Below are positions 1 through 31,588 of a stretch of DNA of 64,000 bases, piece after piece. Source of the DNA: Tropicibacter sp. Alg240-R139 (GTDB taxonomy: Bacteria; Pseudomonadota; Alphaproteobacteria; Rhodobacterales; Rhodobacteraceae); the NCBI RefSeq assembly GCF_900537075.1, contig NZ_UNRA01000010.1, positions 31 to 64,030 on the forward strand. The letters run 5' to 3'. The notes under the pieces were generated by a model. It saw only the letters and a list, made by a program, of their open reading frames with translations, had not been told where the DNA came from and searched no databases. Numbering within the stretch: the first letter of the stretch is position 1; each line of letters starts with the position of its first letter. Both the position numbers and the translations under genes were made by a program.

Positions 1-339
1 CATCATCCGGGCGAAGATGCCCTTTTATCGCTCCACCGCTTCCAACGGTTGTACAGCGTCTTGTGAGGGCCATAGGCGGCAGGTGCGTCACGCCATCGTA
101 AGCCATTGCGATTGGTGAAAATAATTCCACTTAATACACGACGGTCAACCCTCTCGGGACATCACTGCGTGATGCCCTGCCGGGCAGTGAACGCGTGGCT
201 TGCCGTGGGACTTTGGAAAAAAGGGTTCAAGACGCGCCATCTGGGCGTCGCTCAACCAGAAAAGATCAGACATATTCACCGCTCATTTTTGCAGCGGTGA
301 ATCATGCAGCCGGTGGAAATCAATGGGTCCTGACCCTAA
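1..339 (-). mobile_element. IS5-family element, 5' part, cut by window edge
   Basis: On the minus strand, translation from an ATG near 274 gives an IS5-family transposase N-terminus (MSDLFWLSDAQMARLEPFFP, then HGKPR, then NRNGLRWRDAPAAYGPHKTL). The usual two-frame arrangement is visible: near 25-30 the run AAAAGGG lets a -1 shift continue into GIFARMM, as in IS427-like members. The terminal inverted repeat GGGTCCTGACCCTAA lies at 325-339. The reading frame is broken between the V and DRRVLSG segments by a foreign 42-bp palindromic insertion (149-190), so this copy is dead. The rest of the element lies beyond the left edge. Confidence 0.85.
149..190 (+). repeat. 42-bp double-hairpin element, copy A
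   Basis: The insertion sits inside the IS5 transposase reading frame and is absent from the protein expected there. It begins CCCTCTCG and ends GGGCAGTGA. Stem 1 is CATCAC/GTGATG with a TGC loop; stem 2 is CTGCC/GGCAG. A second copy at 31414-31455 matches at 36 of 42 positions and lies in the opposite orientation relative to its host transposase gene. Nature unknown; it resembles REP or Rickettsia-palindromic-type miniature repeats in size and layout, which is an inference. Confidence 0.75.
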
Positions 340-419
340 TTCGCCTAGTGTTCTTGCCGTTTTAGGATTCGGATAGAGTGGTTGGAAGGAAGAGGGGTCA
401 CCTCAAACCTCAACAAAAA

Positions 420-31133: not shown

Positions 31134-31588
31134 CAAGAGCGGGATGAACACGAAACTGCACGCGATCTGCGACAGTTACGGCCGTCCGCTAAATCTGTTC
31201 GTGACCGCCGGTCAGGTCAGCGACTACATCGGTGCAAGGGCGCTGCTGAGCGGTTTGTCAGATGTCGAATGGTTGCTCGGTGATCGAGGTTATGATGCTG
31301 ATTGGTTCAGAGAAGCGTTGAACGACAAAGGGATACGCGCCTGCATCCCAGGCCGAAAGCGACGAAAGACGGCCACCCGATACGACAAGCGTCGTTACAA
31401 ACGACGCAACCGCCCCTCTCGTGACATTGCTGCGCAATGCACTGCCGGGCAGTGATGCGAGATCATGTTCGGTAGGCTGAAGGATTGGCAGCGCGTGGCA
31501 ACACGATACGACCGCTGTCCTAAGGTCTTCCTCTCAGAAATCGCTCTCGCTGCACTCGTCATTTATTGGTTATGAGTCCTGAGCCTAA
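31134..31588 (+). mobile_element. IS5-family element, 3' part, with 42-bp insertion
   Basis: Translation gives SGMNTKLHAICDSYGRPLNL through WLLGDRGYDADWFREAL, PGRKRRKTATRYDKRRYKRR and, after an interruption, EIMFGRLKDWQRVATRYDRC and AALVIYWL-stop. The right terminal repeat GAGTCCTGAGCCTAA is at 31574-31588. The 5' third is absent. The frame is broken after KRRNR by the 42-bp element (31414-31455). It belongs to the same IS type as the fragment at the left edge of the window. Confidence 0.82.
31414..31455 (+). repeat. 42-bp double-hairpin element, copy B
   Basis: Matches copy A (149-190) at 36 of 42 positions. Stem 1 is CATTGC/GCAATG with loop TGC, so relative to copy A both arms changed at two paired positions (C-G to T-A and A-T to G-C). 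Stem 2 is CACTGCC/GGCAGTG. Inserted in an IS5 transposase frame after codons for KRRNR. Confidence 0.75.

Follow-up and report, generated by a model that had tools for sequence, protein, structure and literature searches.

A 41-bp hairpin repeat of Rhodobacteraceae with the appearance of a miniature transposon parasite

Comparison of sequences within and between genomes leads us to conclude that a 41-bp palindromic unit, present twice in a stretch of DNA from Tropicibacter sp. Alg240-R139, is a member of a repeat family that is centred on Rhodobacteraceae, inserts without duplicating its target and maintains a hairpin. The reading towards which we lean, though not heavily, is that of a mobile but non-autonomous hairpin, mobilised in trans in single-stranded form. 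The stretch (hereafter the window) comprises 64,000 nucleotides of contig NZ_UNRA01000010.1. Both copies interrupt insertion sequences (IS) of the IS5 type, as follows.

1..344, minus strand: IS5 start fragment, truncated by the contig start and carrying element copy 1 (by reading)
149..189, plus strand: element copy 1, of the GGG/CCC, CATCAC/GTGATG type, antisense to the interrupted IS5 transposase; covariance model 70.1 bits
31134..31590, plus strand: right part of a second IS5 copy, 5'-truncated and carrying element copy 2 (by reading)
31414..31454, plus strand: element copy 2, of the GTG/CAC, CATTGC/GCAATG type, sense to the interrupted IS5 transposase; covariance model 71 bits

In the start fragment, a terminal repeat near 321-344 and a transposase start codon at 273-271 were recognised by reading; IS5 similarity at contig coordinates C10:11-143, that is, as far as position 113 of the window, backs this fragment. 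In the second copy the transposase stop (31573-31575) is, again by reading, followed immediately by the terminal repeat. Element copy 2 directly precedes codons for IEIMFGRLKDW-like residues of the IS5 transposase, and contig coordinates C10:31164-31439 match an IS5 copy on contig C1 of the same genome at 99%.

The earlier note on this DNA had described positions 149-190 and 31414-31455 as two copies of a 42-bp element, matching at 36 of 42 bases and breaking the frames of IS5 transposases at different codons and in opposite orientation. These observations stand, as does the independence of the two insertions: one further IS5 copy in the source genome has both insertion sites occupied, while another has the first site occupied and the second vacant. 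The repeat unit is real, but its length requires revision. Comparison with empty sites most often gives a net insertion of 41 bp, and the covariance model match stops one base sooner; we accordingly read base 42 as target. Similarly, the two compensating base pairs reported in stem 1 (CATCAC/GTGATG versus CATTGC/GCAATG) exist, but all six differences between the copies, rather than four, compensate, the third pair being GGG/CCC versus GTG/CAC. A search of the window with the covariance model recovered the two copies with E values of 6.5e-20 and 1.2e-19, the third-ranked match having an E value of 0.064; a search of the window against Rfam gave no match at gathering scores.

The two copies belong to a much larger set. 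A pattern search allowing up to three mismatches detected eight copies in the source genome and at least one copy in 44 of 295 Rhodobacteraceae genomes (source genome included), with no matches to the reversed pattern in either search; the carriers yielded 121 matches in 107 distinct contexts. Seventy-five copies were aligned and used to build a covariance model, with copies counted at an E value of 0.01 or less. This gave 16 copies in the source genome, 43 in G067, 36 in G262, 21 in G075 and 14 in G002, a total of 130 matches in five genomes. A search across the class, using stricter filters (E 1e-5), found matches in eight of 289 genomes: three Rhodobacteraceae, plus five other genomes in which the copies number between one and three. 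The exact pattern occurs in 106 stretches of a species-genome collection. Among the matches listed (80 of the 106 titles), nearly all are, from their names, what we take to be Rhodobacterales, for example Leisingera, Phaeobacter, Sagittula, Jannaschia, Salipiger and Ruegeria; the other names among them are two contigs labelled Enemella evansiae (a label that looks wrong) and one Maritalea mobilis. The element is also present in 42 plasmid records, those listed bearing roseobacter names throughout, and in two stretches of viral contigs from IMG/VR (L346:9494-9534 and L345:880-920). One genome from another family of the class (G409) contains 38-nt hairpins with similar ends (L194:1501-1538 and L199:1501-1538); these were set apart as uncertain members, and no adjoining transposase was recognised by reading. 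A literature search of titles and abstract starts of open-licence PMC papers returned no paper describing the element, and words from its sequence returned none.

The element runs from a left end, CCCTCTC, through a hairpin to a right end, CTGCCGGGCAGTG. The hairpin mostly contains a bulged A and, in the main type, is closed by a 3-base loop. In distant members the sequence of the hairpin, the length of its stem and the length of its loop all vary; both ends are constant. Across the 75 aligned copies, six of the nine pairs of stem 1 show double changes, with 64 cells altered on both sides compared to 14.0 in shuffles. In total, 96.3% of stem 1 cells are paired, compared to 27-52% when the two arms are slid against one another, and the bulged base is A in 73 of the 75 copies. 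Hairpin 2 gave no covariation signal, and fold predictions indicate that the 5' CCC could alternatively pair with GGG of the right end, so that the outer structure is ambiguous. Eight single copies folded as DNA had only a modest advantage over shuffles, with z between -1.2 and -2.5. The earlier note had taken the compensating changes to mean that the folded form is under selection. The fold is indeed maintained by such changes, but covariation alone cannot tell selection from templated correction of the palindrome. Of the 675 cells in stem 1, 645 are Watson-Crick pairs, 25 are unpaired and just five are wobble pairs; the near absence of the latter suggests that the conserved fold is a hairpin of DNA.

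In order to define the ends of the element, joined flanks were compared with the collected loci. Of 474 unique contexts, 157 have a homologue that lacks the element; homologous IS copies without it therefore exist, as an earlier proposal to look for empty sites had envisaged, and they define a unit of 41 bp. Among 156 measured alignments the net insertion is exactly 41 bp in 69 cases, between 36 and 44 bp in 125 and outside this range in 31, which we read as split alignments or wrong element calls. Clear empty-site cases show neither target duplication nor base loss. In one, a plasmid gene compared with an empty homologue in Roseovarius indicus, 43 bp to the left and 26 bp to the right are identical and 41 bp have been added.

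The target motif is weak, C^GAYR, with 58% C, 77% G, 58% A, 77% pyrimidine and 75% purine at 212 sites, gathered with a regular-expression finder that lets in some false matches and misses diverged elements found by the model. With the element removed on paper, 92 of the 212 sites are crossed by a reading frame of at least 200 amino acids, to which the element is sense in 47 and antisense in 45. This random orientation makes it less likely that the element is taken out of the host mRNA and, together with the rarity of wobble pairs (5 of 675), counts against the RNA-like nature that the earlier note had entertained as an option. The idea that the variable stem acts as a guide matched to the target was examined in two ways. 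No position pair exceeded the shuffled 95% level (the top value was 0.214, against 0.254). Words shared between stem and own flank at 103 sites numbered 453 at k=4 versus 397 in shuffles (0/1000), with 14/1000 at k=5 and 51/1000 at k=6; after thinning of similar sites to 75, the corresponding values were 340 versus 304 (29/2000), 299/2000 and 610/2000, and with 51 sites the value at k=4 was 12/2000. Since word sharing fades on thinning and no position pair stands above the shuffled level, we make no claim of stem-guided targeting.

All 59 model matches in the source genome and G067 (16 + 43; 55 distinct flanks) were read as lying in or beside insertion sequences. The context of 56 was assigned by reading translated flanks and that of the remaining three via annotated plasmids, which gave IS110, IS481 and IS3 (the last on one flank only). 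A Pfam search of 142 flank peptides listed 25 families, mainly transposase, integrase-core or helix-turn-helix, a result that supports the IS context in bulk, not site by site; outside these groups are RNase H, QueC, the gene for which adjoins a transposase remnant, and some weak hits. Single checks in other genomes identified Transposase_mut (IS256 type), DDE_3 (IS630 type), Transposase_20 (IS110), IS66, Y2_Tnp (IS91) and DDE_Tnp_1; an integrase core at one further site was read as IS481, and plasmid comparison at other sites pointed to IS110, IS21 and IS3. The range of hosts, the names of which derive partly from reading, thus encompasses IS3, IS5/IS4, IS21, IS66, IS91, IS110, IS256, IS481 and IS630. 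Among the contexts read, the only clear insertion outside an insertion sequence lies at the very end of a DUF3768 gene found on roseobacter plasmids, within its last codons, where two genomes carry elements with slightly different loops at the same site (L101:1336-1376 and L105:1316-1356).

A measure of clustering that makes no use of annotation agrees with this reading of context: in 80 loci (561,558 bases), 29 of 39 extra elements fall within 1 kb of the anchor, compared to an expectation of 9.0; none of 2000 random placements gave more than 19. The weak target motif does not account for confinement to insertion sequences.

Two views of this confinement deserve consideration. It is possible, though on balance we think it improbable, that insertion occurs anywhere and that copies survive only in dispensable, horizontally moving DNA, in which case the preference for insertion sequences is a matter of survivorship. 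The short target motif, the truncated or decayed state of some host IS copies, and the fact that the sole clear insertion elsewhere lies in mobile DNA, apparently harmlessly at the end of the DUF3768 gene, are all consistent with such a history. Under it, however, neutral intergenic DNA should carry copies, whereas each of the 59 copies examined was read as lying within or next to an insertion sequence (these being counts, not densities per base), and extra elements crowd within 1 kb of the anchor. A slightly more doubtful proposition is that of a dedicated hyperparasite or anti-transposon element, the machinery of which finds transposon DNA, for example transposition intermediates, such that all classes of insertion sequence are tagged and disabled. 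The survivorship view needs intergenic copies, none of which were seen, and the targeting view needs a mechanism.

As regards the enzyme that would move the element, Y1_Tnp was found in 6 of 35 genomes tested (five of the 21 carriers, one of the 14 non-carriers) and was not found in the source genome, G262, G067, G002, G075 or G250. Y2_Tnp is present in 8 of the 44 carriers and a reverse transcriptase in 14 of 44 (11 above the cut-off). G262, with 36 copies, has no Y1_Tnp, no Y2_Tnp and no reverse transcriptase. None of the three is general among carriers, and each was rejected as the resident driver. A longer, gene-carrying version of the element was found in none of 20 places where right ends lie outside model matches (eight genomes); roughly half of these places proved to be complete elements whose hairpins differ, and the remainder are chance matches in ordinary genes. 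With neither a general resident driver nor a gene-carrying version found, the element would have to be moved in trans by a donor, or only episodically, or by an enzyme outside those considered. A Y1 transposase of the past, or of a donor cell, is a possible mover.

These data bear directly on the notion that the unit belongs to the REP type and has a RAYT (an IS200/IS605-like tyrosine transposase) as its mover, a link for which the earlier note had suggested looking. Size, bulged hairpin and lack of target duplication are as would be expected of such an element, but it bears no GTAG tag and sits in genes rather than between them. Furthermore, Y1_Tnp is missing from the source genome and from the five other genomes named above, and among the Y1 loci (L106-L117) only L107 has element ends nearby, which were assigned to an element in an IS110 copy. 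The counts for carriers and non-carriers do not bear out the link, and we regard this explanation as quite unlikely.

Comparison with known systems shows resemblances to several. GTAG REPs have a bulged stem, and it is this small bulged hairpin that the element shares with the REP/RAYT system. GTAG REPs are described as hairpins of 20-40 bp, with movement in trans attributed to an enzyme of the IS200/IS605 type (PMC3733652). In contrast, the element has no GTAG at either end in the 75-copy alignment and lacks a resident RAYT in most carriers tested; moreover, REPs are mostly extragenic, whereas the element is found inside transposase genes (59 of 59 in or beside IS genes). CGTC repeats (including dRS3, RPE-4 and RPE-6) are, in the same account, mainly alphaproteobacterial and without an associated transposase, with A-T pairs at the start of the stem and a loop of 4-5; most have a CCA tail, and many are arranged as head-to-head dimers (PMC3733652). 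The element resembles them in being alphaproteobacterial, in having a similar stem length and in having no known transposase, but differs in its bulged A, its 3-base loop (main type) and its CCCTCTC and CTGCCGGGCAGTG ends. Compared by published description, the CGTC tag and the other features of CGTC repeats are absent from its consensus, and an RTC-like flank on the other strand is target. RUP of pneumococcus is reported as a 107-bp repeat with terminal inverted repeats like those of IS630-Spn1, once proposed to prefer IS elements and to limit transposases, with the IS preference given there as unsupported (PMC3049150). Both are small repeats for which an IS preference has come into consideration (in RUP, as once proposed), but at 41 bp the element is much the shorter, and RUP has terminal inverted repeats. 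Like MITEs the element is short and non-autonomous; unlike MITEs its two ends are not inverted repeats of one another, and it causes no target site duplication (modal net length 41, and a clean plasmid case).

Single-strand elements of the IS200/IS605 kind insert without duplication, carry a bulged hairpin and enter beside a short target motif. The element has all three features; 16 of 21 carriers tested have no resident copy of an IS200/IS605-like Y1 gene. Group II introns that live in insertion sequences, such as RmInt1, insert cleanly and repeatedly at the same site, a habit that the element resembles; it differs from them in its length of 41 bp, its occurrence in both orientations and its lack of their known features. 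Rickettsia palindromic elements are about 100-150 bp in length and lie in-frame in proteins. They differ from the element on sight in size and frame.

The history of individual insertions is informative. In G134, three IS5 copies that are 84-90% identical around the site contain identical elements (0/41 differences). The same is true (0/41) of two IS5 copies in the source genome that are 79-81% identical inside the IS, with differences beginning within a few bases of the junction. Sixteen copies at one IS5 site show 0 to 7 differences in 41. Co-inheritance would predict several differences between elements, and so, as far as the alignments allow, it seems that the same site was entered repeatedly, unless short-patch conversion moved the element; co-inheritance or local conversion may explain a part of the same-site elements. 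Stacking within a single IS also occurs. Four copies of one IS3 in G075 (L058, L059, L060 and L061) each carry 3 to 5 different elements, and a 227-bp query from this IS3 found only these four copies, all element-bearing. Three of the four reach both ends, one of these with an internal deletion. Either element-bearing copies multiplied or all copies were struck alike. In G067 (contig C43; L077 = L167), seven model matches with different hairpin types occupy approximately 1 kb of an IS3 region.

The range of unrelated transposases struck, and the presence of several elements per IS copy, could be construed as the work of a host or plasmid defence that plants hairpins in transposase genes in order to disable insertion sequences. 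We consider this quite improbable: no candidate machinery is apparent, a plasmid gene has also been hit, and element-bearing IS copies are present several times per genome. Smaller still is the probability we attach to a very small intron, or to an element bypassed in translation, the loss of which from RNA or protein would keep the transposase active. Insertion is clean, frames of at least 200 amino acids cross 92 of 212 sites (counted only with the element removed), and the IS3 of G075 yielded no copy free of elements with the 227-bp query. Recent insertion explains the open frames equally well, however, and both the balance of orientations (47 sense, 45 antisense) and the almost complete lack of wobble pairs speak against this view. 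That the element is simply a normal part of these insertion sequences, as the same filled site in several IS copies might imply, is refuted by element-free homologues for 157 of 474 contexts and by a source-genome IS5 with an empty second site, and we attach next to no weight to it.

We return to the reading of a non-autonomous hairpin that is mobilised in trans as a single strand. The earlier view, of a palindromic element of miniature size that is mobile and makes its home in transposons, is sustained by the many copies and by the existence of IS homologues without the element; single-strand movement is our reading of the comparisons, not a direct observation. The element would move as a folded single strand of DNA, the hairpin and ends of which would be recognised by a recombinase, of the HUH type or another that leaves no duplication, cutting and joining in trans. 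Insertion sequences would be both refuge and vehicle, tolerating the element and carrying it between replicons and genera, and every insertion would presumably disable the transposase copy that it hits.

Most small palindromic repeats occupy intergenic DNA, and they are linked either to a tyrosine transposase of their own or to no known transposase. The family described here is an abundant test case, with precise, duplication-free insertions, empty sites open to comparison, a location almost restricted to transposons and a DNA fold maintained by compensating changes. It makes testable the question of how REP-like elements that lack a RAYT move and that of whether insertion sequences are held in check by elements of this size, as was proposed for RUP but, according to the account cited, not confirmed there (PMC3049150). 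In the Rhodobacteraceae that carry it, the element has the look of a small parasite living on transposons.
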